From: a virus
Reading direction: 5' to 3' (one strand)
DNA length: 36,678 bases
Virus record (IMG/VR): IMGVR_UViG_3300033571_004799
Location: 1-36,678 of that record
Position 1 is the first letter of the stretch. Each line of letters begins with the position of its first letter. Both the position numbers and the translations under genes were made by a program. Of the stretch, positions 1 to 23,500 are shown piece by piece. The notes below the pieces were generated by a model. The model was not told the origin of the DNA. It did not search any database and worked only from the letters and a program-made list of their open reading frames with translations.

Positions 1-1
1 C

Positions 2-85
2 AATGTGTTGACGACTCTTCGCAACGCATCGTTCAACGAGCACGAGTTCCTGTCGCTGGTGACCCCAGCGGCTAACAACAACTGA
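2..85 (+). CDS. C-terminal end of a truncated hypothetical protein
   Basis: An open frame enters from the left edge and stops at TGA 83-85. The 27 visible residues end in a run of asparagines (PAANNN). No family can be recognised from so little. The next gene on the same strand begins about 60 bases later, so this is probably the end of an upstream gene in the same early-type cluster. The frame could be chance, since only 84 bases are visible. Confidence 0.5.
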   Translation, partial: NVLTTLRNASFNEHEFLSLVTPAANNN

Positions 86-146
86 TACACAGGGACGCTT
101 TGCAGTCAGGCTTCACCGCAGATTGCAGAGCGTCCCGCTTATCACT

Positions 147-554
147 ATGGGACTCGACCAAAACGCTTGGGCTGTTGAACCCAAGGTCGCACATCTCGCT
201 CTCATCACCGAGCGAGAACTCACGGACGAAGAAATGGCCTCGCTTGATGCTGGTCGCATTCACCTCATGGATTGGCGTAAACACGCTGACCTAAACAAGT
301 GGATGGAAGACCTGTATGTCCGCAAGGGAGGAACTGATGTCTTCAACTGCATTCCAATGCCGCTACTCAAGGATGACATCCTATCGTTGAGGATGCATCT
401 GCAAACGAACGGCAATGCATACGCAGAGCGAGGCCACGGCTTCTTCTGGGGCGAAACCAGAGCAGAGGACATCGCACAAGACCACGCATTCATCGACAAG
501 GCTCTCAACGCCATCGATGAAGGATACGAAGTGTATTACATCTGCTGGTGGTAA
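147..554 (+). CDS. Small phage protein of the 'phosphoglycerate kinase'-labelled family
   Basis: The protein is 135 residues. It opens MGLDQNAW, then has WRKHADLNKWMEDLY, a GG..VFNC segment, a GHGFFWGE segment and a C-terminal YEVYYICWW. This pattern fits a small conserved family in many tailed phages that databases often call phosphoglycerate kinase, although it is far shorter than the roughly 400-residue enzyme and lacks its nucleotide domain. I therefore do not assign a kinase reaction. The ATG at 147 is preferred over a TTG at 123 because family members start with MGLD. No clear ribosome binding site precedes it. The next gene starts 7 bases after the stop, so the two are probably co-transcribed. 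Confidence 0.75.
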   Translation: MGLDQNAWAVEPKVAHLALITERELTDEEMASLDAGRIHLMDWRKHADLNKWMEDLYVRKGGTDVFNCIPMPLLKDDILSLRMHLQTNGNAYAERGHGFFWGETRAEDIAQDHAFIDKALNAIDEGYEVYYICWW

Positions 555-561
555 CACGACC

Positions 562-990
562 ATGCCTCTGAACTTCAAGTTCGCTGACACCACCGATAGA
601 GCCATCATCGAGTACAAGCGAGATGATGGACAACTCTATTGGCATCCCCGTGCTGAGGTCTTCATCTATTATCAGATGTTGCTTCAGCACGACCTCACAG
701 GCGAGATGACAGACGACAAGTTGATTGAGATTGCGAGACGCATCGCACTCATCGACCTGTTTCATGTTTCTCCGCAACTGCATGAAGGAGACGAGTCGTA
801 TCGTATCCAACTCGCAGATGTTATCGCCTATTGGGGCTTATCCACCAACTGCTCCCATCTTACTCGCACCAAGTGGGACGCATACTACAACAGGTGCTTC
901 CTCAAGCGTGATGCCAAGGATGTCATCGAGCGTCTTCGTGTCCGTGTTCCAATGCACAAGAACACCAAACAAGATGCCATCGGTAGTTGA
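562..990 (+). CDS. Hypothetical protein, 142 residues
   Basis: The ATG at 562 follows the previous stop by 7 bases. The frame is open further upstream, but that part reads out of frame through the preceding gene, so 562 is the sensible start. The product is soluble and mixed in charge, with an aromatic patch (LYWHPRAEVFIYYQ) and a basic C-terminus (RLRVRVPMHKNTK). I see no catalytic motif or membrane segment and recognise no family. It sits in a cluster of small genes of the kind usually found in phage early regions. Confidence 0.7.
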   Translation: MPLNFKFADTTDRAIIEYKRDDGQLYWHPRAEVFIYYQMLLQHDLTGEMTDDKLIEIARRIALIDLFHVSPQLHEGDESYRIQLADVIAYWGLSTNCSHLTRTKWDAYYNRCFLKRDAKDVIERLRVRVPMHKNTKQDAIGS

Positions 991-1048
991 AGTCATCGTC
1001 ATCACAGTATGGGCTATCGCTATAGCCCGTGGTTTAGGAAAGAAATAA
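974..1048 (+). CDS. Possible 24-residue membrane peptide
   Basis: This short ORF begins at an ATG inside the end of the preceding gene (17-base overlap) and ends at TAA 1046-1048. The peptide is a single hydrophobic stretch (VEVIVITVWAIAIA) followed by a basic tail (RGLGKK), which is the form of a one-pass membrane peptide with its C-terminus in the cytoplasm. A 7-bp inverted repeat (1011-1017 with 1022-1028, loop of 4) lies inside it, so the composition could instead reflect RNA structure. A similar short peptide overlaps the end of the next gene at 1584. The ORF is too short to be certain. Confidence 0.35.
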   Translation: MPSVVEVIVITVWAIAIARGLGKK

Positions 1049-1075
1049 TCCCAAACCCTTGCGTAAGTGAGGTTT

Positions 1076-1090
1076 CACACACACACACAC
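1076..1090 (+). repeat. (CA)7 simple repeat
   Basis: Fifteen bases of uninterrupted CA dinucleotide lie in the gap between two genes. Such microsatellites are uncommon in compact phage genomes. No function can be assigned. Confidence 0.85.
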
Positions 1091-1100
1091 GCATAGCGAA

Positions 1101-1131
1101 ACGAGCCACGCCATAAAAAAGCGTGGTTCGT
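1101..1131 (+). terminator. Hairpin, possible weak terminator
   Basis: An 11-bp stem (1101-1111 with 1121-1131, one G-T pair) encloses a 9-base A-rich loop, with TCCATTTT after the stem. The T-tract is short and offset, so termination would be weak. The hairpin lies in the 194-base gap (1049-1242) between two co-directional genes. Besides this hairpin and the CA repeat I see no gene in that gap. Confidence 0.45.
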
Positions 1132-1242
1132 CCATTTTCCAGCCTAGGAAATGTTAAACTAATGATGTAGCAAGCACGGCACGACGCACGGCTTGTTGCC
1201 CGCACGAACCAACACCAAGTGCGGTGACAGATACGACACAAC

Positions 1243-1587
1243 ATGAAAGCCAAACAGTTCACCCTCACGCTCAACGCTCTCCTCGCCGCAAGCGAGCGAC
1301 TCACCAAGGACAAGAGCATCACCGCTCTCGCCAACTGGTGCGACAAGGCCAAGGACTTCGACGCTCTCGCAAGCGTTGCGGCCAAGGCCGCTCGCTCGCT
1401 CCGCTCGGATGACTCCGTTTCGCTCGGCAAGAAAATGAGCGTGGCCCAACTGACTGTGAAACTCCCGACCAAGTTGAAGCCTCGCAAACTTTTCCGTGCC
1501 GCGATGGAAATCGCCAAGCATCAGGCGAAGCGTGTGAAAACCATCAGCAAGTCGAAGGAAATCCTCAGCAAGCATCTCGCCAAGTGA
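1243..1587 (+). CDS. Hypothetical small basic protein, 114 residues
   Basis: The product is strongly basic, with an alanine-rich helical middle (DALASVAAKAARSLRS) and a Lys/Arg/Ser-rich C-terminus (AKRVKTISKSKEILSKHLAK). The charge and helical look would suit a nucleic-acid-binding protein, but there is no recognisable domain. It starts at ATG after a sequence without a Shine-Dalgarno site. A hairpin separates it from the upstream genes, so it may have its own transcription start. A GTG-initiated short ORF overlaps its stop. Confidence 0.65.
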   Translation: MKAKQFTLTLNALLAASERLTKDKSITALANWCDKAKDFDALASVAAKAARSLRSDDSVSLGKKMSVAQLTVKLPTKLKPRKLFRAAMEIAKHQAKRVKTISKSKEILSKHLAK

Positions 1588-1646
1588 CGGGGATCATTAC
1601 GCTCCTCGCCTTGCTCGCTGTGATGCGAGTGCTGAACGGCAAGTGA
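1584..1646 (+). CDS. Possible 20-residue membrane peptide (GTG start)
   Basis: A GTG overlaps the stop codon of the preceding gene as GTGA, a typical translational-coupling arrangement. The peptide is one hydrophobic helix (IITLLALLAVMRVLNGK) with a basic end. It resembles the short peptide at 974-1048 in placement and in its hydrophobic-then-R-x-L-x-G-K layout. No family can be assigned at this size. Confidence 0.3.
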   Translation: MTGIITLLALLAVMRVLNGK

Positions 1647-1677
1647 GACGCGTTCAGTAGCACGGCATTGCGGTAAA

Positions 1678-1713
1678 GAACTCCTCCTGCTCCTCACGGG
1701 GCGGGGGGAGTTC
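1678..1713 (+). terminator. G/C-rich hairpin, possible terminator
   Basis: A 10-bp stem (1678-1687 with 1704-1713, one G-T pair) with a 16-base loop follows the last of the small left-end genes. It is followed by TCTCCCGCTCTGTTT rather than a clean T-run. It would close the left transcription unit before the repeat-rich region. Confidence 0.4.
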
Positions 1714-1889
1714 TCCCGCTCTGTTTATGCATACCCCCTGACGGGTTCATGCACATACACTTTTAACGCAAAAGACCTATAAGTCTGTGGAAGACGGGGA
1801 TTATTAAGGGGGAATGGGGGTATCTTGTCAAGTCTGGTCGGTGGAAATATGTCTCTTTTTAATTTTTCAATGACAAAATGCGACTAAAT
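1714..1889 (+). other. Gene-free stretch with G-tracts
   Basis: No plausible gene is present. The + strand carries G-tracts at 1796-1799, 1808-1812 and 1816-1820, then an A/T-rich segment with short T runs around 1855-1868. A near match to a DnaA box (TCATGCACA) lies at 1747-1755. The stretch leads directly into the repeat array at 1890. Confidence 0.6.
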
Positions 1890-1958
1890 GGGGGGAGGAA
1901 ATGTATTTCCTAGGGGGGTGAAATGTATTTCCCGAGGGGGGTGAAGCAGATTTCCTAC
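1890..1958 (+). repeat. Three 23-bp direct repeats with a palindromic core (iteron-like)
   Basis: G6 tracts begin at 1890, 1913 and 1936, exactly 23 bp apart. Each is followed by a core of the type GGAAATGTATTTCC, a near-perfect palindrome in units 1 and 2. In unit 3 the left half is degenerate (GAAGCAGATTTCC). Spacing close to two helical turns puts the cores on one face of the DNA, as in protein-binding iterons. The array is followed by a tandem repeat, A/T-rich DNA and a DnaA-box match. It could be a replication origin, an operator array or a packaging site. Confidence 0.8.
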
Positions 1959-1960
1959 AT

Positions 1961-1984
1961 ATAGAATAGAGGATAGAATAGAGG
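1961..1984 (+). repeat. 12-bp perfect tandem repeat next to A/T-rich DNA
   Basis: ATAGAATAGAGG occurs twice without a gap (1961-1972 and 1973-1984). It is followed by ATATATAAAAAGG (1985-1997), an easily melted stretch. Direct repeats next to an A/T-rich unwinding segment are a common layout in iteron origins. Confidence 0.8.
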
Positions 1985-1997
1985 ATATATAAAAAGG

Positions 1998-2026
1998 TTG
2001 ACAGAGAGGGATTAGTAGGTTTTGTT
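1998..2026 (+). promoter_or_regulatory. Putative promoter (TTGACA box) just before the ORF at 2033
   Basis: A perfect -35 consensus TTGACA lies at 1998-2003. The hexamer 17 bases later (TTTGTT, 2021-2026) is a poor -10. The element shares a GATTAGT block (2010-2016) with the putative promoter at 8958. Taking a transcription start about 7 bases past the -10 would put +1 at or next to the ATG at 2033, that is, a leaderless message. Confidence 0.45.
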
Positions 2027-2030
2027 GGGG

Positions 2031-2039
2031 TTATGCACA
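2031..2039 (+). promoter_or_regulatory. DnaA-box match TTATGCACA
   Basis: TTATGCACA fits the 9-base bacterial DnaA-box consensus TTATNCACA exactly. It overlaps the start codon of the ORF at 2033. One 9-mer can occur by chance, but it lies just past the iteron-like repeats and the A/T-rich segment, which is where a host-initiator site would be expected in an origin. Confidence 0.45.
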
Positions 2040-2542
2040 AGGAGTCAGACATTTCAGAGTTAATGGGCATAAAGCGTAGCGAACTAAAGAAGATTAGGGA
2101 GAGCATCCCTAATATGCACCCTGAACTGGGTGTTCTTTGGACGAGAGAGGAGTCGAACAGACCCGAAAAGATGAAAACTGTCCTTTGGACTGACGGCGGG
2201 GTTCAGTTTTTGACATTATACTTAAACATTAAGGTTCAACACGAAGAGATTAAGAAGGATACTGAATTAATGAAGCCCATGACCAAGGGGGAGTTTGATA
2301 AATCGGTCAACAACACCAAATGGGTCGGTAAAGTATCTAATAACCGCTATAAGAATAAGACCTGCCTCATGGTTGAGCATGATACTGGCTTCAAGGTCAT
2401 TGTTTTATGCAAAGACAACCTGATGTACCCCAGAAACTCATTTGTCATTGTCGAATGTAAGAATTTACGACATACTGTCCGTCAACCTCATTTCCAAACC
2501 TATGAAAAAGCCTACCAGCAAGCCAACAAAGCAAAAGCCTAA
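2033..2542 (+). CDS. Putative DNA-binding protein next to the repeat array
   Basis: The product is 169 residues. Residues 6-22 (DISELMGIKRSELKKIR) read like a helix-turn-helix or MerR-type recognition helix. A middle segment and a C-terminal part with alternating hydrophobic residues (NNRYKNKTCLMVEHDTGFKVIVLCKDN) follow, then a basic tail. No family is recognised with confidence. Position suggests a role: it is the first gene after the iteron-like array and its start codon overlaps the DnaA-box match, so it may bind those repeats as an origin-binding protein, late regulator or small terminase subunit. I see no ATPase or nuclease motif. No Shine-Dalgarno site is present. Confidence 0.65.
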   Translation: MHKESDISELMGIKRSELKKIRESIPNMHPELGVLWTREESNRPEKMKTVLWTDGGVQFLTLYLNIKVQHEEIKKDTELMKPMTKGEFDKSVNNTKWVGKVSNNRYKNKTCLMVEHDTGFKVIVLCKDNLMYPRNSFVIVECKNLRHTVRQPHFQTYEKAYQQANKAKA

Positions 2543-2543
2543 C

Positions 2544-2636
2544 ATGGAGTCCGAAGTTTTTAAGAAACTTGGTATTCCTCCGTTTAAGAAGCCTGTCCAC
2601 GACGACGGCGTTAACAACAACCAGAAAAAGAAGTAA
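2544..2636 (+). CDS. Hypothetical small basic protein, 30 residues
   Basis: The ATG at 2544 lies one base after the preceding stop and the gene ends at TAA 2634-2636, which overlaps the next ATG as TAATG. An alternative ATG at 2502 would add 14 Lys/Pro-rich residues and overlap the upstream gene by 41 bases. The product (ESEVFKKLGIPPFKKP, then a Lys-rich end) has no recognisable fold. The tight coupling on both sides is the main support. Confidence 0.5.
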   Translation: MESEVFKKLGIPPFKKPVHDDGVNNNQKKK

Positions 2637-2881
2637 TGGCTACCTATAAAGGCCGAAAGGTCACACTCAACAAACCATTCAGAACCCCCAGCGGCCCAAA
2701 GAAGTCTGCCGTCTATGTTAAGGGTTCTGGTGGAAAAGCAAAGATTGTCCGCTTCGGTGACCCGAAGATGAGCATCAAAAAGAACAACCCCGCTCGCAGA
2801 AAGTCTTTCCGTGCTCGGCACAAGTGTGCTACCGCCAAGGACAAAACTTCTGCCAGATACTGGTCTTGCAAGGCTTGGTAA
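2636..2881 (+). CDS. Conserved small basic phage protein (RKSFRARHxC...RYWSCKxW type)
   Basis: The product is 81 residues and very basic. It starts MATYKGRKVTLNKPFRTP and ends with a signature: ARRKSFRARHKC, then ARYWSCKAW. This C-terminal Cys/His/Trp pattern is common in small proteins of many environmental podo- and myophages and also as the tail of some head-maturation proteins. I believe it matches a domain-of-unknown-function family, possibly DUF5872, but I could not check the name. The two Cys and the His could bind a metal. The ATG overlaps the upstream stop (TAATG). Its place just before the packaging and head genes suggests a particle-related or DNA-binding role, which is inference. 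Confidence 0.75.
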   Translation: MATYKGRKVTLNKPFRTPSGPKKSAVYVKGSGGKAKIVRFGDPKMSIKKNNPARRKSFRARHKCATAKDKTSARYWSCKAW

Positions 2882-2882
2882 T

Positions 2883-2936
2883 ATGAAATGCTCAAAAAAG
2901 AAGTGTTCTTGCCGCTCTAAGTGCAAGAAAAAGTAA
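2883..2936 (+). CDS. 17-residue Cys/Lys microprotein
   Basis: An ATG two bases after the previous stop opens a 17-codon ORF encoding MKCSKKKCSCRSKCKKK. It has four cysteines (positions 3, 8, 10, 14) and nine lysines plus one arginine. The pattern C-x4-C-x-C-x3-C could hold one metal ion or form disulfides. It follows directly on another Cys-containing basic protein and is closed by a hairpin at 2943. The biased composition is unlikely by chance, but expression cannot be judged from sequence. Confidence 0.45.
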   Translation: MKCSKKKCSCRSKCKKK

Positions 2937-2942
2937 AAACGA

Positions 2943-2962
2943 TGCGATGCTAAAGCATCGCA
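2943..2962 (+). terminator. Perfect 8-bp hairpin between microprotein and tRNA
   Basis: TGCGATGC (2943-2950) pairs fully with GCATCGCA (2955-2962) across a TAAA loop. No T-tract follows, so it may be an RNA-processing or attenuation element rather than a full terminator. It separates the upstream coding cluster from the tRNA. Confidence 0.5.
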
Positions 2963-2970
2963 AAGATAAC

Positions 2971-3045
2971 GCCACTGTAACTCAATGGTAGAGTGCCTCT
3001 TTTGTAAAGAGACTGTTGTCGGTTCAAGTCCGACCTGTGGCCCCA
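2971..3045 (+). tRNA. tRNA-Thr (anticodon UGU)
   Basis: The sequence folds as a 75-base cloverleaf with an encoded CCA end. The D stem ACTC/GAGT, anticodon loop TTTGTAA (anticodon TGT, reads ACA) and T arm GTCGG-TTCAAGT-CCGAC are clear. There are two irregular pairs: a T-T mismatch at 6-67 in the acceptor and a C-A mismatch at 27-43. The discriminator is C. It is the only tRNA on the + strand, between a microprotein gene and an HNH endonuclease gene. Confidence 0.92.
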
Positions 3046-3101
3046 CCTTATTAACGCCAAACGGCTTTCGCTTTAATAGCCAAATCCCTTATTAACGCCA
3101 A
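3046..3101 (+). repeat. 15-bp direct repeat pair between tRNA and HNH gene
   Basis: CCTTATTAACGCCAA is found at 3046-3060, directly after the tRNA CCA end, and again at 3087-3101, where its last A is the first base of the HNH start codon. A shorter piece, TAACGCCA, also spans the tRNA 5' end at 2967-2974. Such repeats may be traces of insertion of the tRNA/endonuclease segment or binding sites. Confidence 0.8.
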
Positions 3102-3502
3102 TGGACAAAGAAGAAGAATGGAAGCCAGTGCCAATCAAGCAATTTGATGGGTTGTACGACATTTCTAGCCACGGACGGCTCAGGGCTAGGGAGAAGGTGA
3201 CAAGTGACGGCAGAAGGCTTCCTGAGAAGATTGTTAAACCTACTAAACTTAAGAACGGCTACTTGCAGTTTAAGTTACACAACAACAAGTTTAGGTATAA
3301 TGTAAATGCACACAAGTTAGTTGCAATTACTTTTGGTCTGATATACTGGAACGAACATTCATCCTCGGAGTTACAGATAAACCACATAGATGGAAACAAG
3401 GAGAACAACTCCGTTTCAAATCTTGAAGCCTGTACCCCTAGCGAGAACCTACTTCACGCTTACAGGACTGGATTAAAGAAACCCTCTAAAAGATATGGCT
3501 GA
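3101..3502 (+). CDS. NUMOD4 / HNH homing endonuclease
   Basis: The 133-residue product starts with a NUMOD4-type DNA-binding motif (EEWKPVP...YDISSHGRLRAR, residues 5-30). It continues into an HNH nuclease: AHKLVA with H71, then INHIDGNKENNSVSNLE with H95, D97 and the following Asn residues. This is the usual build of phage freestanding HNH homing endonucleases, which cut DNA and promote their own spread by recombination. It is intact and full length. Its stop overlaps the start of the next gene by 8 bases, so it has been fitted into the operon. The 15-bp repeat just before it may mark its arrival. Confidence 0.93.
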   Translation: MDKEEEWKPVPIKQFDGLYDISSHGRLRAREKVTSDGRRLPEKIVKPTKLKNGYLQFKLHNNKFRYNVNAHKLVAITFGLIYWNEHSSSELQINHIDGNKENNSVSNLEACTPSENLLHAYRTGLKKPSKRYG

Positions 3503-4910
3503 ACCTAGTAACCCTTTTCAGGATGCGTTAAACGAACAGATTAGACAGTTCGAACTTAAGCAGAGACCCACCAACAAGAGAGCGACTACCGCTGTCGGAC
3601 TTGTTACGGAAACGGCTGGAGAGTATCCCCGTGCATCATTGACTGCTGGTGCTGGCACTTATGCCGCTTATAGTGGTGTCAAGGGTTGGAAGTCGGCTTA
3701 CAAGGAAGGTCTTGAAGTGATGAGGGGTCGTGTAGCCTCTGAAGGTAAGGCTGTTACAGAACTTGCAGGTAAGGGTGTTCAGGCAATTCCTCGCTTTGAA
3801 GGAGGCAACGCCGCCATTCGTACAGCCGCCAAAGAGTATGCGATGGAGAAGATTTTCTCTGGCTTCCCTTTTAGAAATCAGGAAGCAATTAACAGAGTCT
3901 CAGATTTAAGACAGGGAAGAGTTATTCTTACTGGAGAAAAGGTGGTTGGCGTTAGACCGAAATTAGACTTAACCAAGACTCCTACGGCTGTAACCATTAC
4001 TCCGTATGAAACACCTGTCGGAATTGCTCAAACACCTAGGCAAGTAACTTTAGAAACGGCAGGAAAAATTCCGAAGTTTGATTTAAAGCCTACTACATTC
4101 CCCCACGACCCTCTTAACAAAGTTGATTTAGACTCTATTAATTGGACTGGTAAAACACAGCCTACAAGAGTCAGTAATGCTCCTGCGTATACTCCTCCTA
4201 CGACAAGAAAGCCGTCTCTTCCTAGGAGAGCCGCTGAAATTGGCACTGGTGGTACATTTGGTAAAATCAATGTTGGCTTAGAAACTGCGGCTACTCTTTA
4301 CGACCTTGCAAGAGAAGAAGGCCCAGTCCGTACAGCATATAGGTCTGCCGCTGACCAAGGCGAAATGCTTGAAGGTGTTGCGTTAGGTGGACTTGCCGCC
4401 GCCAGTCGTGCTGGCAGAGGTGCTACTAATCTACTTACCCTTGGTGCTCCTGAATATTTAGGCATCTATGACACTATGGACTTGCTACAAGTCGAGAACG
4501 AAGCCAAACGCAGATATATGCAGATGCGTGGTACGCAAGGTTTCCCCGCTGAGAATTATCCTGTAATTAAGAATGGCAGAGAATTTGTACCTGTTGATGA
4601 CAGTCCTTATCTGCAAATGATGGAGGCTCAGATTGCCGCTGAAAGAGGCATCGATACTTCTTTGATGACGGAAAATTTCTACAAAGGCCCAGAGTTTAAC
4701 TATGTAGTTCAAAACGGAAAGGTCGTTGCTATGAGAAAGCCTGAGTATGCCGCCATGCGTGACGCTGAGGTTGATAAAGCACTCGACAGATATACATATA
4801 ACCGACCTGTGATGAACATCGACCCCCAGTTTGGCGGGATTGGTTATCAGTTTAACGCTCCTCGTGCTTTCAACTTCGGCGACTATACGGATTACATGGC
4901 AGACAGATAA
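3495..4910 (+). CDS. Hypothetical protein, 471 residues, possibly virion-associated
   Basis: No family is recognised. Residues 1-35 are polar. Gly/Ala-rich helices follow (ASLTAGAGTYAAYSG near 47), then a Thr/Pro-rich middle (about 155-240) that looks unfolded, another Gly/Ala-rich region (about 255-310), and an aromatic C-terminus (FGGIGYQFNAPRAFNFGDYT). The build, with low-complexity middle and amphipathic Ala/Gly helices, is like that of phage minor structural or ejected proteins. It is the gene directly before the large terminase and overlaps it as TAATG. The gene at 31775 has a comparable layout, but I cannot show homology. Confidence 0.7.
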   Translation: MAEPSNPFQDALNEQIRQFELKQRPTNKRATTAVGLVTETAGEYPRASLTAGAGTYAAYSGVKGWKSAYKEGLEVMRGRVASEGKAVTELAGKGVQAIPRFEGGNAAIRTAAKEYAMEKIFSGFPFRNQEAINRVSDLRQGRVILTGEKVVGVRPKLDLTKTPTAVTITPYETPVGIAQTPRQVTLETAGKIPKFDLKPTTFPHDPLNKVDLDSINWTGKTQPTRVSNAPAYTPPTTRKPSLPRRAAEIGTGGTFGKINVGLETAATLYDLAREEGPVRTAYRSAADQGEMLEGVALGGLAAASRAGRGATNLLTLGAPEYLGIYDTMDLLQVENEAKRRYMQMRGTQGFPAENYPVIKNGREFVPVDDSPYLQMMEAQIAAERGIDTSLMTENFYKGPEFNYVVQNGKVVAMRKPEYAAMRDAEVDKALDRYTYNRPVMNIDPQFGGIGYQFNAPRAFNFGDYTDYMADR

Positions 4911-6517
4911 TGGCTGAACTTAACTTCAAGCCAACTCCGCACCCAGTCATCAAGATGCCAGACATCAAGATGCTGGTTGAAAAACTGGGCATCGAAACGA
5001 CTGCACAGATACTGGAGTTGCGAGAAGATAAGATTTTAGCCGAACAGTTAGACCCTTATCGTCACGGCTTTGAGCCTGACCATTGGAAAAAAGCGGACGA
5101 ACTTCTTAAGAACAAGCAGGAGATACTGGTGCTTGGCGGCAATCGTGCAGGTAAGACGGAGTGGATGGCTAAGAGGGTAATCCAAACTCTCATCAATAAG
5201 GAAAAGTCGATGGTCTGGTGCTTGCACACGACACAGAAGTCGAGCATTCAGATGCAACAGAATGTTATCTGGAAGTATATGCCTCCAGAACTGAAGAACT
5301 GTAAGAAGACAAAGGTCACTAATATCGCATACTCACAGAAAAACGGGTTCTCTGAAGAGTCGTTTATTCTGCCAAACGGCTCACAGTGCGTGTTTATGAA
5401 TTACGCACAGAAGCGAGATGTCATCGAAGGTGGTGAGTGCGACCTTATTTGGTGCGATGAACTTGTGCCGATGGACTGGGTAGAGACTTTGCGGTATCGT
5501 CTGGTAACCAGAAGAGGAAAATTGGCTATTACTTTTACCCCTATTAGCGGCTACTCTCAGGTTGTTAAGGACTTTGTGGCTGGTTGCTCGTTCAAAGAGT
5601 GGTTACCTGCACCAATTTTAGATAATAATACAACATATGTGGGTGGAGTACCTAAGGGGCATATGCCTTTTACAGCCGACAGCCATCGTTCCAATGCATC
5701 GGTCATTTGGTTTCACTCCCAACTCAATCCTTACAACCCTTTTGACGAATTAGTTAAAACTTTAGAGGGAAAAAACCTCTACGAGAAGAAAATTCGTGCT
5801 TACGGATGGGCTGATAACACAGTAGGTAACCAGTTCCCTAGATTTTCTGACTCACATATCATTGACAGTAAGAAAGTTCCAGAAGAAGGGACTAATTACA
5901 TGGTAGTAGACCCCGCTGGGGCGAGAAACTGGTTTATGATTTGGGCTAGGAAGGCTGATGACGGCAATCTTTATATTTATAGAGAGTGGCCTGACATTTC
6001 TTACGGCGAATGGGCGTTACCTAGCGAAAAACCCGATGGTAAAGAGGGTATGGCTCAAAGAAACGGGGCTGGTATGGGTATTGATGACTACAAGCGTCTT
6101 ATAAAGAAACTGGAAGGAGACGAAGAGATGATGGAGCGGTATATCGACCCTCGTGCAGGTGCTACTCAAGCCATTGGCAGGGACGGAGGCACATCTGTTA
6201 TTGAACTTTTAGATGGTGGCGATGAGCCTATGTACTTCTCTCCTGCCGCAGGTATCAGCATAGAGCAAGGAGTTGCTATGATTAATGACTTAATTGCATG
6301 GAATTTAGAACAGCCGTTGTCTCCTCTCAACCAGCCTAAACTTTTTGTAACTAATAATTGCAAAAACCTAATATACTGTATAAAAGAATGGACAGGTGCT
6401 GATGGGGACAAAGGGTCTACAAAAGACCCGATTGACTGCCTTAGGTACTTGGTCGTTATGCAACCTGAGTACATAGACCTGCAACAGATGCCTGTCAATA
6501 AGCCGTTCTCCTACTAA
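4910..6517 (+). CDS. terL: Terminase large subunit
   Basis: The 535-residue length is normal for the family. An ATPase domain carries Walker A GGNRAGKT (76-83), a Walker B CDLIWCDE (177-184, acidic pair D183/E184) and the coupling motif TFTP (208-211). The RNase H-like nuclease domain has candidate metal ligands at D334 (VDPAG), D413 (YIDPRAG) and D509 (KDPIDCLRY). The enzyme drives genome packaging into the prohead and cuts the concatemer. ATG is taken from the TAATG overlap with the preceding gene, and the same overlap joins it to the portal gene. No small subunit is recognised. A candidate by position is the ORF at 2033. Confidence 0.95.
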   Translation: MAELNFKPTPHPVIKMPDIKMLVEKLGIETTAQILELREDKILAEQLDPYRHGFEPDHWKKADELLKNKQEILVLGGNRAGKTEWMAKRVIQTLINKEKSMVWCLHTTQKSSIQMQQNVIWKYMPPELKNCKKTKVTNIAYSQKNGFSEESFILPNGSQCVFMNYAQKRDVIEGGECDLIWCDELVPMDWVETLRYRLVTRRGKLAITFTPISGYSQVVKDFVAGCSFKEWLPAPILDNNTTYVGGVPKGHMPFTADSHRSNASVIWFHSQLNPYNPFDELVKTLEGKNLYEKKIRAYGWADNTVGNQFPRFSDSHIIDSKKVPEEGTNYMVVDPAGARNWFMIWARKADDGNLYIYREWPDISYGEWALPSEKPDGKEGMAQRNGAGMGIDDYKRLIKKLEGDEEMMERYIDPRAGATQAIGRDGGTSVIELLDGGDEPMYFSPAAGISIEQGVAMINDLIAWNLEQPLSPLNQPKLFVTNNCKNLIYCIKEWTGADGDKGSTKDPIDCLRYLVVMQPEYIDLQQMPVNKPFSY

Positions 6518-10045: not shown

Positions 10046-11077
10046 ATGGCTAAATTAACAGAACCCAATATCGTCAGCGGTAAGCGTGAAGCCCTCGCTG
10101 ACATCATCTCGATGGTGGATGCTAAGTCCACCCCGTTCACCTCGATGGCCCCGAAGGTTGCTAAACCTGGCAACACTAAGTTCCGCTGGCAGGTTGACTC
10201 TCTCCCGAATGTGACACCCGAACAGGCTGGCATTGTCGATGGTACGGATGTTGACCCGAATGGTGCTCAGATTAAGAACTATGTCAAGGATGGTGCTAAC
10301 CAGTACCGCTACGAACTTGAAAACCACATTCAGATTTTCAGAGAAAGCACTCGTGTGTCTCCTCTGACAACTGACATTGCCGTGGTTGCTGGCGTTCGTT
10401 CCGAACTGTCGAACAATGTCGCTAAGGCTACCGAAATCCTGAAGCGTAAGATGGAAAGAACTCTTTGTTCTGCCAATCTTCCTAAGGCTGACGATGGCAA
10501 CACGCAGGGCTACGCTACTCGTGGTCTTGACTCGTGGATTAAGAACGACTTCACAGGCGACACTTACCTCGCTGTTCCGACTCCGTTCCGCACTCCTACC
10601 TCCAGCATCTCGACTGTCGGCACTGCCGCTCTTGATGAAATGGTCTGTCAGAACATCCTCGCTTCCGTCTTTGAACAGCAGGGCAAGCCGCAGGAATTCG
10701 ATGGTCTCGTTGGTTACAAGTTAAAGCAGGCTTTTACTGCTCTTACCTACACCACAAGACAGAATGCCAACTCTAACACTGCTTCCGTCATCCGCACTCT
10801 TAACAGAGACTCGGAACAGAGCGTGTACAAGTCCAGCATCGATGTCTTCGAAGGCGACTTCGGCTCCATCCGACTGCATACCTCGCTGTTCCTGAAGAAC
10901 AACTTCTGCGGTTACCTCCTGAACTGGGACTTAGTTGGCGTTGGCTACGGCGGCAACATCGCTCAGGTCAAGGAACTGACCGACAACGGCGGTGGCCCTG
11001 CTCGCATGGTCGAGGCGATTGCTACTTGCATCGTCAAGAACCCGCTCGGTCTCGCTAAGTTCGACTTCACCTCGTAA
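10046..11077 (+). CDS. Major capsid protein
   Basis: The 343-residue product begins with KREALADIISMVDAKSTPFTSM, a pattern typical of HK97-fold capsid proteins of the group often filed under DUF5309 or SU10-like capsid proteins. Further along, a helix with SELSNNVAKATEILKRKMERTL would be the long spine helix. The gene sits between scaffold and tail-adaptor genes. The first part of the gene is richer in C-ending codons than its neighbours, in keeping with high expression. The family label is from memory. The capsid role is strongly supported by position and sequence style. Confidence 0.9.
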   Translation: MAKLTEPNIVSGKREALADIISMVDAKSTPFTSMAPKVAKPGNTKFRWQVDSLPNVTPEQAGIVDGTDVDPNGAQIKNYVKDGANQYRYELENHIQIFRESTRVSPLTTDIAVVAGVRSELSNNVAKATEILKRKMERTLCSANLPKADDGNTQGYATRGLDSWIKNDFTGDTYLAVPTPFRTPTSSISTVGTAALDEMVCQNILASVFEQQGKPQEFDGLVGYKLKQAFTALTYTTRQNANSNTASVIRTLNRDSEQSVYKSSIDVFEGDFGSIRLHTSLFLKNNFCGYLLNWDLVGVGYGGNIAQVKELTDNGGGPARMVEAIATCIVKNPLGLAKFDFTS

Positions 11078-13803: not shown

Positions 13804-16091
13804 TGCCTAATGAATACCTAAAGGACGGGGATATTTCGTTTGTCGGGCTTAACAGCCGTGACAACCCTAGTTCCTTGCCTAAGGGTATCGTTAGCAGGTC
13901 TCAGAATTTTAGACTAGATAGAGGTATAGCCCAGACCAGAAAAGGGCTTCAGAGAAAGACCATTGGTTCTATCATAAACCAGAACATCTTTGGTGCTGGT
14001 ACATATATCCAGCCAAACGGACAGGAGATAATCGTCTTAGTTGTAGCGAACGGGCTGTACACATATAACCCGCAGACCGAAACACTGTCTTCTAAGATTT
14101 ATTTTCCTAATCATGTAACTGGAAAAACACTTACTTGCTCTGACTCAATAACTGTAACCATAAACTCTGTCGCACATGGCCTTAATGTAGGAGACAAAGT
14201 CTATGTTGAGGCAAATCAGAATGGGTACACTGGTTTGTTCGTCATTACTATTAAGACGAACGACACCTTTACCTACACGATGCCAGCAGTAGCCAGTCAC
14301 GGGCCTGTTGGTTTGGTCTCTTGTTCTTATTCTGCTTCTGAACTTATAACCACTACAGATGGTTGCGATGTCTGTAGTGCTATGGATAAAATCTTCATAA
14401 GCAGAGGCTTTGATAAGCGTCCGCTGATGTGGGATTTGGCTAATACCATCATAGCACTTCCTTCTAGTGGGACTGGCGTAGAGTTCCCTAACTGCTCTAC
14501 TTTGCTTTACTACGCAAATAGACTTGTAGCAATCGGCAAGTATCACTTAGAGCCAAACACTCTTAGAAACTACGACAGTATTTCTGTTAGCAACTACCTA
14601 GACTATACCGACTGGGATGTTGCAGATGTTTTTACAGTCAACAACGGAAGCAATGACCAACTGGTGGGCGTGTCGCCTTGGACTCTAAATGAGTTCCTTG
14701 TGTTCATGCGTAACAGCATCTACTATGTTTCCGTAGGTAGCGACAGATATGTAACAGGAGCACCACTGAGCACGGACTCTTATATCAAGACCCTTGCTAC
14801 AGACATAGGTTGTTCTGCCAGAAAGTCTGTAGTTCAGGCTGGCGGTGGAGTGTTCTTCCTGTCCGACAACGGCGTTTATTTCCTTCAGCCTCAACAGTCT
14901 TCTCAGGACTCGATGAAGTTGTTGACCATGAGCGACCCTATATCCGCTCCTATAGACGACATCATCCAGAGAATAAACAAGAACTATTCTAGTAACGCCG
15001 TTGCTACATACTGGAACAACAGATACTACCTTGCCGTTCCTTTAGACAACTCCACAGTTAATAACACTGTTCTTGTATTCAACTTTATCCTTAAGCAGTG
15101 GGAGTCGGTTGATACCTACCCTACTCTTGTTCAAACTGGCAACTCGCTAGTTGCTTATACTGCAAGTTTTTACACAAGCATAGTTACTGCTAATTACTAT
15201 TATTTAAATGTACAAAAGTACACAACCCCAAGACACGGCTTGGCAGTAGGAGATTATGTAAATTTAAGTTTCGGGAAAGCGTACAATGGTGCAACAGTAA
15301 CAAACTACAGACTTCCAGATGGTACATATAAGGTTGTTAATATAACAGAAAATAATTCTGTGCTTCCATTTTTTGACACTACATTTAGCGTAGAAATTCC
15401 AAAGTCTAGTTTTGTAATACAGCCCTACGATGGCACAAACTGGATTTTTAATGGTACTGATGACTGTACTTTTTCAAAGGCTGAATCAGTTTCTTTAAAA
15501 GACTTTATTGTTGTTAAGAAGGACAACCAGAGGCGTATGTTTTTAATTGACAATTATCAAGGCATATTCCTTACGGAACAACTTGACCATGATGAGTTTG
15601 GAAATTCTACAGGTGGCCCAATACTTCCTATTCCGATTGCGAATGTTGATACAAACGAAAACATCGCAAAAGGATTATACGGAAACCTGATACTTGTTTC
15701 TCCTCTTGATGCCAATGGAAACCCAAACCCTAATGTCATCATTCTTGACCCATTAGCGTTTACAAAGAATGACATTCTTGCTGTCTTAGAAACCAGACAG
15801 TACACGATGGACAGTATTACTGACAAGAGGTTTAGTTCCTATGAAGCCAACATTCTTACTGCTGGAGGCGAAAGAGTTGAAACCTATGCCGAAATCATTA
15901 ATCCAGATGTCAGCGTGAAGGTTGACTCCCTAGGCTCATCCTCGTTAGAAGACTATAATAGAAGTAACCCTGTCAGAAAGATAGGGTCTGGTGCTACGCT
16001 GAAGTTTGTCTCTTACTCTAAGAGGCCGTCTATCAGGTCTGCATTTATCTACGCTACACAGCAAAAGAAGAACAACATAAACAAAGAATAA
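13803..16091 (+). CDS. Tail nozzle / tail tubular B-like protein
   Basis: The 762-residue, beta-rich product begins with an SLPKGIVSRSQNFRLDRGIAQTRKGL segment typical of podovirus nozzle proteins (T7 gp12, P22 gp10 class), which continue as a beta-propeller-like ring. Segments such as RLVAIGKYHLEPN and NNRYYLAVPLDNS look like propeller blades. Two HGL-type beta modules are inserted, near residues 108-175 (AHGLNVGDKVYV) and from H478 (HGLAVGDYVNL). Length matches the family (about 790 for T7 gp12). It is coupled to the small membrane protein by TAATG. Confidence 0.78.
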   Translation: MPNEYLKDGDISFVGLNSRDNPSSLPKGIVSRSQNFRLDRGIAQTRKGLQRKTIGSIINQNIFGAGTYIQPNGQEIIVLVVANGLYTYNPQTETLSSKIYFPNHVTGKTLTCSDSITVTINSVAHGLNVGDKVYVEANQNGYTGLFVITIKTNDTFTYTMPAVASHGPVGLVSCSYSASELITTTDGCDVCSAMDKIFISRGFDKRPLMWDLANTIIALPSSGTGVEFPNCSTLLYYANRLVAIGKYHLEPNTLRNYDSISVSNYLDYTDWDVADVFTVNNGSNDQLVGVSPWTLNEFLVFMRNSIYYVSVGSDRYVTGAPLSTDSYIKTLATDIGCSARKSVVQAGGGVFFLSDNGVYFLQPQQSSQDSMKLLTMSDPISAPIDDIIQRINKNYSSNAVATYWNNRYYLAVPLDNSTVNNTVLVFNFILKQWESVDTYPTLVQTGNSLVAYTASFYTSIVTANYYYLNVQKYTTPRHGLAVGDYVNLSFGKAYNGATVTNYRLPDGTYKVVNITENNSVLPFFDTTFSVEIPKSSFVIQPYDGTNWIFNGTDDCTFSKAESVSLKDFIVVKKDNQRRMFLIDNYQGIFLTEQLDHDEFGNSTGGPILPIPIANVDTNENIAKGLYGNLILVSPLDANGNPNPNVIILDPLAFTKNDILAVLETRQYTMDSITDKRFSSYEANILTAGGERVETYAEIINPDVSVKVDSLGSSSLEDYNRSNPVRKIGSGATLKFVSYSKRPSIRSAFIYATQQKKNNINKE

Positions 16092-18569: not shown

Positions 18570-20549
18570 ATGCCTTCACCATTTCAAAAGTATCAGTCTG
18601 AACAAGTTCCGCAGATTAACATCCTGCCATACACTCAGGCTATGGCAGAGCAGAACGCCAATGCCATTGCTGGGTTTGGCAAGAACTTAGGCGATGCCAT
18701 TGCCAAGTACGGACAGGCACAGCAGGAGCGTGATGAACTGGCACAGGTTGCTCAGTCTGAACTGTCTAAGTTTGTCGTTCCTGACCCTGCTAACTCTGAC
18801 GACAAAGACAGATTTAAACCTTCTGATGACGCTCCTCAGCATTCTGCTGACCTTATTAACCTAGCCCTTAAGGAAGGTGACGGAGATGTTGCCAGAGGTA
18901 TGGCGGCTGTCCCTATGAGCAAACTCAAGGGGTGGTACAACGCTGACACTAGGTATCAGAAGGCCGTTCAGGTAGAAACAGAGAACAAGTTTAAAACAAG
19001 AGAATTAAACCTACGCAAAGATGCCAATGCGGTTGCTAAAGCCGCTCAGGATTTAGCGAAGAAAGAGTACCAATTAAGAAAGTCTGAGTCCGATAGAAAG
19101 GCACAGGACGCTAAGGAAGAAAAGGCCAAGTTAGACTTGTTCAGAAGAACAACTGACTTAAGCGGAGTTGTTACTTCTAAGGATGTCGATGAAGTTATTC
19201 CTGTGTTTGAGGAAGTTGGTGACATCTGGGGCAAGGACGGAGAATTAATTGCTTCTAATGTGATGCTTCAGGATGGCATGAAGGCTCTTGGCCTTAAGCC
19301 TACCGATGTTGTTACCGAGGCTCAGGCTATTGCCGCAAGGACAGAGGGTACTGGCTTTAAGCATAACGCCGTAGGCAAGTACTTAACGCAGAACGACAAG
19401 TTCAACTTTCAGGCTGGCTTTAGCGAGGCTGTTCAGAACGGCTATGCTGAGTCCTATATTCGTAATGCGTTTAGACAGGCTAACGCATGGTCTGTAGAGA
19501 ATACAGGCAGAGAACTTACTGGCCTTGAGGCCATCTTTCCTAGAGGCTTAGACGGGGAAATTCAGAACCCTGCAAAGGCTTATGAACTTGCCGTCAAGTA
19601 CGCCCAGAACCCTCAGTTTGTTGACTACATCAAGAAGCAGGGTGTCAATGTAATCCCTGATGGTGCGGCCTTCAATAAGGCGTTTTACACTGTTACAGGA
19701 AAGCAGGAGTACGGCTCTAAGACTGTAGTTCATAAGATGGAACTTAAAGAGGCCGAGCGTCTTAAGATAAGATACGATGCCATCGCCGCCGCCTCAGGTG
19801 GTTCAGACAAGTTGCCTCTTTCGTTGTATCAGATTATGGCAATGCAACCTGATAGGTTCTTGCCTTCTGCCGAAATAACACTGCCTGATGGCTCTACGCA
19901 GAGAGTATACAAGGCTGGCAAAGACTGGGTCTCTTCTACTTCGTTGGTTGGTCTTGGTGAGTCTGGAACTCCTACGACAGAAGCAGGACTTAACATTGCC
20001 TCTGCCGACAAGTGGTTGAGAAACTTCAATAAGCCGCAGACATTTGGTAATGTCACAGTTCAGTTTGTTGGTGGAATTAACAACTTTGCTGGCAAGTGGT
20101 CTGACGACTATCCGTTGCTTAAGCAGGGCTTTACCGATGTTGAACAGACTGGTAAACTTGCCAATGAGATGCGTCAGTATGTCGGTAAGGGTCTGTTGTC
20201 TAAGGTCATGGATGTTGAAGCCAGAAACCGCTTTGACTCCCTTGTGATGAGAGCCACGACATACAGAAGATACTTCATCGCTGGCGGTCAGGAAACTGAA
20301 CCCGATGCCCAGCGTCTCTTCGACATTGTCGGTGCGATGAACACATCAAGAATGGTGTTCAAGGACTCTCACCTTGCCGCCATTAATGCGTTTGAGTCTA
20401 TCCTTAGAGATAAGGTCGTAGGTCAAGCCAGACAGAACGGCTTCAGAGTTGCCGTCAATAAGAGCGGAGAAAAGTTTGACCTCAAGAAGATTATTAAAGA
20501 TGTTGAGGCAGACAACGCCAAACAGGGTTTAACAACTCCTACTAAATAA
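18570..20549 (+). CDS. Internal virion protein C-like (gp15 position)
   Basis: The 659-residue product is mostly helical, beginning with a Gln/Ala-rich helix (TQAMAEQNANAIAGFGKN) and including a long charged helix (about 135-195). Length is close to T7 gp15 (about 747), which with gp16 forms the periplasmic/inner-membrane ejection tube. The start is ATG with a fair Shine-Dalgarno match (GAGGA). The stop overlaps the giant gene as TAATG. No enzyme motif is seen. The role is inferred from order and helical build. Confidence 0.68.
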   Translation: MPSPFQKYQSEQVPQINILPYTQAMAEQNANAIAGFGKNLGDAIAKYGQAQQERDELAQVAQSELSKFVVPDPANSDDKDRFKPSDDAPQHSADLINLALKEGDGDVARGMAAVPMSKLKGWYNADTRYQKAVQVETENKFKTRELNLRKDANAVAKAAQDLAKKEYQLRKSESDRKAQDAKEEKAKLDLFRRTTDLSGVVTSKDVDEVIPVFEEVGDIWGKDGELIASNVMLQDGMKALGLKPTDVVTEAQAIAARTEGTGFKHNAVGKYLTQNDKFNFQAGFSEAVQNGYAESYIRNAFRQANAWSVENTGRELTGLEAIFPRGLDGEIQNPAKAYELAVKYAQNPQFVDYIKKQGVNVIPDGAAFNKAFYTVTGKQEYGSKTVVHKMELKEAERLKIRYDAIAAASGGSDKLPLSLYQIMAMQPDRFLPSAEITLPDGSTQRVYKAGKDWVSSTSLVGLGESGTPTTEAGLNIASADKWLRNFNKPQTFGNVTVQFVGGINNFAGKWSDDYPLLKQGFTDVEQTGKLANEMRQYVGKGLLSKVMDVEARNRFDSLVMRATTYRRYFIAGGQETEPDAQRLFDIVGAMNTSRMVFKDSHLAAINAFESILRDKVVGQARQNGFRVAVNKSGEKFDLKKIIKDVEADNAKQGLTTPTK

Positions 20550-23500
20550 TGTCCGAACTTACCTTTAGCAACCAAGAAGAACTTAGAAAACTCGCTCTTG
20601 CGAACGGCCTTATCATGCCGTCTCAGCAAAAGAAAGAGGACTCTGAAATCCCCCTTATCCCAGACGGCGATGTAAACATCCCTCAAGAACCTGAAGACGA
20701 GGGGATGATTGTCGCTGAAAAGATTAGGCAGTTTACTGGAGTCGGTTACAGACCTACATACGAAGAGGCCATCAAGTATAAGAACTTTATGGACAAGCAG
20801 GAAATCTCCGCTTGGGCTATGATTGGACAGGCAATCGAACAGACTGCTTCTGACCTTACGAATGCGGCTTTGTCCCTTGCTGGAGACACGCTGTCTTTGA
20901 AACTTCCTAAGGTCGCTGGCTCTGTGGTTGAAGGTGCGGCTCTTGGTACTAAGAACTGGTACTACATGATGGAAGAGGCCAAGTACAACGAAGCCTCTCC
21001 TATCCACAAATTACTTTATAAGAAGACTGCCTCTGACGAGGAGTACTACTACAACCTCACGAAGTTGTTGGATGTTCGTGAGAAGATGGAGCGAGACATA
21101 AACGAAGGCATCCTCCTTCCTAAGGAAGTAGAAGTTGGTGGCGTTAAGTTAGACCTTTGGAACCCCGCTACTGTGATGGGCATCTCTTATGTTGCCGACC
21201 CCAGTTGGGTGATGCCTAACCTTGGCATCGAGTCTGCCCTTGCAAAAAGTATGCGTGGTGCGTCTAAGGTCATGGCTCTTAACGAGCAATTAGCGAATGT
21301 CGCCGTCTGGTCTTCCAAGCAAGCGGAACTTGCGGCTGGTAAGTTGAAGGGTGGTTCTTCTGCCTTAGCCAACCAAATTGTCAAGACCGAGGAAGCCCTC
21401 ATTAAGAACATCGAAGACATCACAGGTCAGAAGGTGTTCGTTGGTACTTCTGGTAACATCGTGGACAAGAATGACCTTGGTCGTGGTGCTATGTCTGCGG
21501 CTGGTCTTAACGCCGTCAAAATTCCTGCTTGGGGTTTCACGACTCTTGCTTGGGGTGCTTCTAAGATTACCGAGACTGCGGCTAGTGCCGCTCAATTGGC
21601 GGCTAAGATTGCCCAAGAGCCTACTACTCAGTACGGACTGCGTATGTCTGAGCGTCTTGCGATGCAGTCGGACAACGCTTCTGTCCGTGCCTTGGCTGGC
21701 ACATGGGCTAAGACAGGCTCTCCGCTTGTAGAGTGGGCTGGAAACACTACCAGAACATCCCTTCACTCTGCCATGTATGGCGGTGCGTTTGGATTTACCT
21801 TTGGTGGTGAAGAAGGATTTTATCATGGCGTAGGTTCTGGTTTCACAATTGGCAGTGCCTTTCATCAGATTGGTGCTATACATAATACTGTTGCTGGTGC
21901 TGATGCTCCTCGTGAGGTCATCAAGAATTTTCTCTGGGCTACGGAGGGTTACGATTTCGCCAACAAGGAAGGCGTGTTCCGTCTTCTGGCTAATGCGGAA
22001 AAGGACTATGGTGCTGAGAGAAAGTTGAGCATCATGTCAGACATTGCCGCCTCTGAGCGTCTGCAAAGAGATGTCAAAAAGGTCATTCTAACGGAGGAAC
22101 GCATCAAGGAAATCATCGGTGAAAATTCACCTGAGTGGGCTGAGTTCATCAAGGAAGCCAATGGTAGTCCTGAGTTTGGTGGTATTGCGTTCCAGCGTAC
22201 TTTGGACGGACAGAAGGTTGTCATCATCAACGCCGACAGAGCACACCACTTTGCCGCCAAGGAAGAATTGTTCCACTCCCTACTGATGGACAACCGCTAT
22301 GGTCTGGAATTCCAACGCCATGCAATTGATGCCCTTATTGGTTCGGAAGACAACAAGGGTGCTCTGTACAGAGTCTCTAAGGAAGATGGTGCTAAAATGC
22401 TTGAAACTTTTAGAGACGCTTACCTTGGCGTAGAAGACAAGGCTTCCAACGGAGACCCTGAGCGTATCAACAAGACCAGAGGTGTCTGGAATGAGGTAAT
22501 CAACAAGTTTAGAAACGGAGAAACTGACGGACGACTTAACAAGTTGTTCGAAGAGTTCTTAGCGTCTTACTGGGTGTCATATGTTGACGACAAGCCTATC
22601 GACTTCCTGCTTAAGGGAGGTGACCTTGGTCTTGTCCGCAACGCTATTGAGTTAGCCAAGGATGCCTACAAGAACACCATGCACCAAGACCTTCGGGCGG
22701 CGGGGGGTAAGTTCGTGTTTGGCGACAAGATTGACGGCTTCTTTACCAATCATACCACAGGAGAAAGAGTCCGTATTCCTAAGTTGGAAAAGTTGATGAA
22801 GCACTTTGTGGAGCGTTCCAGAAAGGAAATGTACACGGGTTGGGTGCAAAACAAGCGTTCTGTTACCAGTGTCGAGAAGGCTCTGACTGGTGGCCTTGAC
22901 CACCTTGTAGTTACGAATGCCGATGGTTCTGCTAGAATTGGAAGTGCTGATGAGGTCTCTAAGAAGGTCGGAAAGAACCTTCAATCTGCCATTGAAGAGA
23001 TTTCTGAACTTGGAGAAGGAGGTCTTAAGTTCCAAGTCATTGGTAAGGACGGCGAAGTAAACGCCAGTTTCTCTCCTGCTAAGAACAGCAGAAAGCCCAA
23101 GAAGAAAAAGAAACCAGCCGCAAAACCTAGCAAGGATGTACTGCTTGACGATGACGGAGACCTTTCTCCTTTAGATTATACTGCCTCTAAGAGGTACAAC
23201 AAGCACTGGGAAGAACAGGCTGATGCTTTAGCGGAACAGGACAAGGCTCCTATTACCAATAAAGAACTTGCCGCCGCCGAACAAGCGGCTGGAGAAGCCC
23301 CTGATATGGGTGGTTGGAGTACGGACAAGAGAAAGAAGTTCTGGAAGAGCGTCTGGAACGGCAACCCGAGAATTAAGATTACTGGCGTAGCGACCAAGAA
23401 GGAACTCGCCATCTTGGAGAAGTGGCTTCCTTACAATGTGGTCAATAGGTTCAAACACCTTAACGCTGTCATTGAGATGTCCAGAATGGGTACATTTGCT

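Follow-up and report, generated by a model that had tools for sequence, protein, structure and literature searches.

Which function is served by a compact array of poly-G runs, palindromes and A+T-rich DNA located directly ahead of the virion genes of an environmental phage? The stretch of DNA analysed here (the window, 36,678 bp) is an IMG/VR phage contig that is classed as linear by IMG/VR and is, judged against relatives of 42-46 kb, incomplete. Its genes lie on the plus strand up to 33360 and on the minus strand from 33490 on, and the array is placed between a terminator-like hairpin and the first gene of the virion operon (Table 1). A first-pass annotation had read this array as an iteron origin with a DnaA box and an adjacent helix-turn-helix protein, and had mentioned a late operator array as an alternative. 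Among named genomes, Phage C75C1 is nearest, with a large terminase (TerL) identity of 31%; a search of genome contigs with a capsid-alignment profile, aimed at the host, gave no relative. Rfam searches of positions 1-3200 returned nothing above threshold except a tRNA-Thr, which is followed, early in the virion operon, by a gene for a homing-type endonuclease (NUMOD4/HNH; both within 2971-3502). A single ORF of 3649 aa (20549-31498) occupies almost a third of the window and has no match in PHROGs.

Table 1 Features of the window that are relevant to the array (positions count from the first letter of the window).
Feature	Position	Strand	Sequence or remark
Terminator-like hairpin closing the upstream transcription unit	1678-1713	+	from sequence; arms vary yet persist in aligned relatives (by eye)
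Iteron 1	1890-1910	+	GGGGGG + AGGAAATGTATTTCC; palindrome 1897-1910
Iteron 2	1913-1932	+	GGGGGGTGAAATGTATTTCC
Iteron 3, degenerate	1936-1955	+	GGGGGGTGAAGCAGATTTCC
Purine-rich A+T tract, putative DNA unwinding element	1956-1997	+	holds the 12-bp tandem repeat; conserved
TTGACA, probable -35 element of the late promoter	1998-2003	+	kept in 22/22 clade leaders
DnaA-box-like string, non-conserved	2031-2039	+	TTATGCACA; overlaps the start codon
First gene of the virion operon	2033-2542	+	169-aa product; N-terminal helix-turn-helix, coiled coil, OB-like barrel (predicted fold)
Large terminase TerL	4910-6517		
Major capsid protein	10046-11077		phrog_1328, 1e-30

Architecture of the intergenic array

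The G6 runs of the three iteron units start at 1890, 1913 and 1936, exactly 23 bp apart as had been claimed, and the 14-bp palindromes that belong to them start at 1897, 1919 and 1942, resulting in a spacing of 22 and 23 bp. Unit 1 alone is a near-perfect palindrome (AGGAAAT-GT-ATTTCCT). The 12-bp tandem repeat at 1961-1984 is exact and is separated from the TTGACA at 1998 by ATATATAAAAAGG (1985-1997); all three elements lie where the first-pass annotation had put them. The easily melted segment that it had described was also recovered, as positions 1956-1995 take rank 2 in meltability among the 40-bp segments of the window (99.96th percentile). A search of the whole window revealed a single copy of the array, and 300 simulated versions of the window (first-order Markov) contained no comparable array. 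GC skew was determined for seven rotated relatives and showed no inflection at the array; it follows the gene strand, for which there is a strong bias, and is therefore of little informative value here.

Conservation of the array among relatives

Relatives were collected as approximately 150 loci in scans with the 2033-2542 product, TerL and the capsid protein. Their contigs are circularly permuted relative to each other, with ends scattered over many places, which is compatible with circular forms or with packaging from concatemers. The array precedes the same gene in all 22 distinct leaders of the window's clade, compared with none of 21 leaders of more distant relatives. Conservation of the repeat spacing had been named beforehand as a test of the origin idea, and number and spacing of the units are indeed kept throughout the 22 clade leaders. 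In an alignment of 19 leaders the iteron units average 1.6-1.8 bits per position; the values for the A+T tract and the flanks are 1.5 and 0.7, respectively. The claimed DnaA box fared differently: the string TTATGCACA is real, but it is present in 2 of the 22 related leaders only (the window and one close relative), and the ATG inside it is the start codon at 2033, which argues against a DnaA-type origin. Two contigs end in or near the array. That of G005 (L027) is broken inside it and carries 28 unusual bases (CCCCCCAGCGGGGCCTACCCGATCCCCC) at this point, and L003 begins 42 bp before it, with 42 bp that differ from the window sequence; these ends reflect either an assembly problem or a genuine DNA terminus or variant.

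A matching array within an O-like initiator gene

In the full-length relatives (42-46 kb), a whole-genome search for the iteron pattern detected a second array at a distance of 8.4-9.0 kb from the first and on the opposite strand. It comprises three units at 22-23 bp (four units in G006 and G010) and is followed in G001 by the purine-rich A+T tract ACATATAGAACAGAGGATAAGAAAGAGGATAG. This array is located within an ORF of 210 aa, the product of which matches the 'replication initiation O-like' family (phrog_678, 8.5e-15) and also Pfam HTH_36. The O-like gene adjoins a gene for a DnaC-like helicase loader (phrog_50, 1.2e-25), and the ERF annealing protein, exonuclease VIII and RusA resolvase families are represented in its neighbourhood in G001. 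The pairing of two arrays was seen in the relatives; the initiator gene is outside the window, which ends ~1.1 kb short of it according to an alignment with G013, and the closest pair for the window is formed by L003 and G013, two separate contigs of one metagenome.

An AlphaFold2 model of the O-like protein features a winged helix-turn-helix (wHTH) at residues 13-95, a disordered linker (97-126) and a helical C-terminal part. The array is carried by codons 91-124 in the linker region, and synonymous variation in this segment of the gene amounts to 0.11, compared with 0.29 and 0.33 on either side. As it falls to about a third there, the DNA of the array itself is constrained. Mid-gene repeats were present in 14 of 14 further O genes inspected, with differing sequences. 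The best solved match to the modelled wHTH is 4pql (VIA-align Z 8.1, rmsd 2.4, 81 residues aligned), a margin that is too small to name a family from the predicted fold alone, and a sequence search of solved structures with the O-like profile gave weak wHTH matches only. An initiator of the O family, mid-gene iterons with an A+T tract, constraint on the DNA and an adjacent loader gene were thus all found, as in a lambda-type in-gene origin. Note that the fourth in-gene iteron of L266 (10001-10651) and L267 (6844-7485) is an in-frame insertion of 21 bases that lengthens the linker by 7 residues. G007 (IMGVR_UViG_3300010970_000150, 88287 bp) has double the usual size and two different O-like genes at 27867 and 71432; it probably consists of two phages joined.

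One iteron code at both sites

Three genomes (G021, G024 and G027), the initiators of which are 36-39% identical to the G001 initiator, have another iteron, GCCAGAAAACTGGC or a close variant, in the O gene and again in the late leader, where the second array combines the GCCAGAAAACTGGC-type palindrome with a ACATATAGTAATAG tract. In G021 and G024 the late-leader array is followed by TTGACT ahead of the first late gene. The corresponding array of L207/G027 (15667-15756) points, from iterons to tract, away from the late operon and has the reverse orientation of the arrays in the window clade. There are two lineages with two iteron codes, and each genome uses one code at both places. The presence of one code at both sites in a distant lineage indicates that both sites follow the same protein, and from these sequences we strongly infer that the O-like initiator binds both arrays.

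When the mid-gene segment was used as the query, a second array was found in 11 of 65 O loci; in the controls over the same loci, neither the reversed sequence nor the 5' part of the gene detected any, and the 3' part detected 1. The remaining loci are on contigs that are too short to include the leader or belong to clades in which a second array is absent. Clades with an O identity of 40-52% retain the in-gene array in the absence of a second copy, and sensitive blastn searches with each genome's own iterons detected no second array in G014-G020, G023 and G025. Since some clades keep the in-gene array alone, this replication system can do without a second origin.

Probable late promoter and first late gene

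In most array-bearing leaders the late start codon follows the TTGACA at a distance of 35-38 bp (46 bp in two leaders), and 8 of the 21 array-less leaders have TTGAC 31-38 bp upstream of the start codon. Its occurrence with or without an array makes it the probable -35 element of a short-leader late promoter, and this promoter probably exists independently of the array. A -10 element was not recognisable in the array-bearing leaders of the window clade, whereas the array-less G016 and G018 have TTTGACA-17-TTAATA.

As for the putative helix-turn-helix protein that had been proposed to start at 2033, the helix-turn-helix is indeed predicted, but nothing points to an initiator. Family searches with the 2033-2542 product gave neither an initiator nor a TerS-like match, and its candidacy as initiator was rejected on the basis of this result and the predicted combination of helix-turn-helix, coiled coil and OB-like barrel.

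On the minus strand at 1801-1831, a conserved block, TTATTA(A)GGGGG...TGTCAAG, reads TTGACA-18-TTAATA and is promoter-like. It points away from the late operon and toward the hairpin at 1678-1713, and may give rise to a short leftward RNA next to the array; G016 and G018 have similar blocks in forward orientation. Tiny hydrophobic frames at ~1587-1647 (+) and 973-1047 (+), which follow the genes preceding the array, are kept in relatives, for example in L159, where the frame ends with ...LRILNGR.

Comparison with known systems

The origin of lambdoid phages is located inside gene O (PMC7466680). The origins of lambda and Stx phages resemble the in-gene array described here in that iterons and then an A+T tract lie in the middle of the gene of a wHTH initiator, with the loader gene downstream (PMC7466680). 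They differ in the number of iterons (4 or 6), and a second intergenic copy is not described in the cited literature. The best solved folds for the O-like wHTH are the N-terminal domains of plasmid RepA initiators (4pql, 4pt7, 5kbj, 4pta), but many unrelated wHTH proteins score nearly equally and the C-terminal half of the O-like protein is unmatched.

A further parallel is provided by the Bacillus phage SPP1, the initiator of which is gp38. Its oriL is located in gene 38, and oriR lies between genes at a distance of 12-13 kb; in the model proposed for it, gp38 bound to oriR stalls forks and starts recombination-dependent concatemer synthesis (PMC6316719, PMC3485210). As far as the arrays can be compared by published description, the likeness extends to the genome size (~44 kb), to one array of direct repeats with an A+T tract in the initiator gene and one in an intergenic region, to the adjacent helicase loader and to the encoded exonuclease, annealing protein and RusA-type resolvase (PMC6316719, PMC3485210). 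A second, intergenic array with matching repeats and an A+T tract was found in the present phages, as were an exonuclease, an annealing protein and a resolvase. In contrast to SPP1, the two arrays are 8.4-9 kb apart and inverted, the intergenic array is joined to the late promoter at the head of the virion operon and does not lie amid late genes, the iterons are palindromes spaced by poly-G or poly-C, and a phage DnaB-like helicase is absent among the genes scanned.

Proposed function and alternative explanations

We consider it probable that positions 1890-1997 are an intergenic duplicate of the phage's own replication origin, which would function on the late promoter as a second origin similar to SPP1 oriR or as an initiator-bound fork barrier. 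Of the iteron origin suggested by the first-pass annotation, the origin-type DNA is strongly supported, given the iterons, the unwinding tract and the same array in the O-like gene. The DnaA-type origin had to be abandoned: the box is not conserved, the adjacent ORF has no initiator match and the O-like gene is 8.4-9 kb away. A phage origin of the lambda/SPP1 type is known; what is new is an intergenic duplicate of the in-gene origin on the late promoter that is kept clade-wide and has matching codes in two lineages.

In our reading, the origin of this family is located within the O-like initiator gene and consists of roughly three palindromic iterons, spaced by poly-G or poly-C, and a purine-rich A+T tract, all in linker-coding DNA. 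The window clade repeats this module before the virion operon, 8.4-9 kb off and inverted. Replication would begin at the in-gene origin, as proposed for SPP1, and the initiator on the intergenic copy would either fire a second origin or stall forks. Stalled forks would then allow the exonuclease, the ERF annealing protein and the RusA resolvase to launch recombination-dependent concatemer synthesis. In our analysis firing and stalling appear equally open; firing keeps this standing because the window copy exceeds the minimal unwinding unit of lambda, which comprises two iterons and the adjacent A+T tract (as cited in PMC7466680). The iteron-to-tract direction in G027, which is reversed relative to the late genes, counts against this proposal. 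As the intergenic copy lies directly at the late promoter, binding of the initiator to it may also couple replication to late transcription.

That the bound initiator acts in late transcription is a serious rival or addition to the proposed second copy of the origin because the TTGACA is joined to the array and no -10 element is recognisable. The late operator array, the earlier alternative, likewise stays open on account of its contact with the late promoter. We tentatively propose, as an idea with well below even chances, that origin and promoter are fused: the initiator on the late-promoter copy would time the virion genes, one protein and one module would launch both concatemers and late genes, and the iteron code would have changed in step at both sites. 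Equally doubtful is a pure transcription switch, in which an early-made initiator on the iterons would activate, or repress and then release, the virion operon while no DNA synthesis is started here. It would explain why the array ends right at the conserved TTGACA and why a -10 element is recognisable in the array-less G016 and G018 and not in array-bearing leaders. However, the unwinding tract, superfluous for an operator, has been copied with the iterons and is conserved, distant relatives have TTGAC at the same place without any array, and the orientation of the array is flipped in G027.

Extra copies of the lambda origin in trans block lambda replication (PMC4488673), and a second array should therefore lower the amount of free initiator; the array could thus act as a decoy that titrates the initiator or pairs with the other array (handcuffing) and limits initiation. 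We judge this improbable, as titration requires neither an unwinding tract nor a fixed position at the late promoter, and both are conserved. Slightly less credit still is given to the array as a pac site, at which packaging would be started by a small terminase; the 2033-2542 product would be a possible candidate for this enzyme. The array lies ~2.9 kb before TerL, the pac of SPP1 overlaps late promoters and the TerS gene (PMC6316719), the product has a helix-turn-helix, a coiled coil and a barrel in its predicted outline, and the G005 and L003 contigs end in or close to the array. On the other hand, matched iterons recur in the initiator gene, the product is without a TerS-like match and the circularly permuted contigs have ends at many places; fixed packaging ends at the array were rejected for this permutation. 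A chance assembly of G-runs and palindromes, finally, has a negligible probability: homopolymer runs by themselves are not rare in the window, but the conservation of number, spacing and sequence in 22 leaders already refutes this explanation, and the array is absent from the simulations and matched at a second site.

Phages with two origins and an initiator-bound second site have so far been represented largely by SPP1, and even there the role of oriR as a late origin or a fork barrier is still a model. The environmental phage family described here offers natural comparisons: the second array is present in some clades and lacking in others, its orientation is reversed in one case, its junction with the late promoter is fixed, and two iteron codes are in use. 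It thereby makes testable how lytic phages go from circle to concatemer replication, and whether this switch is tied to late transcription.
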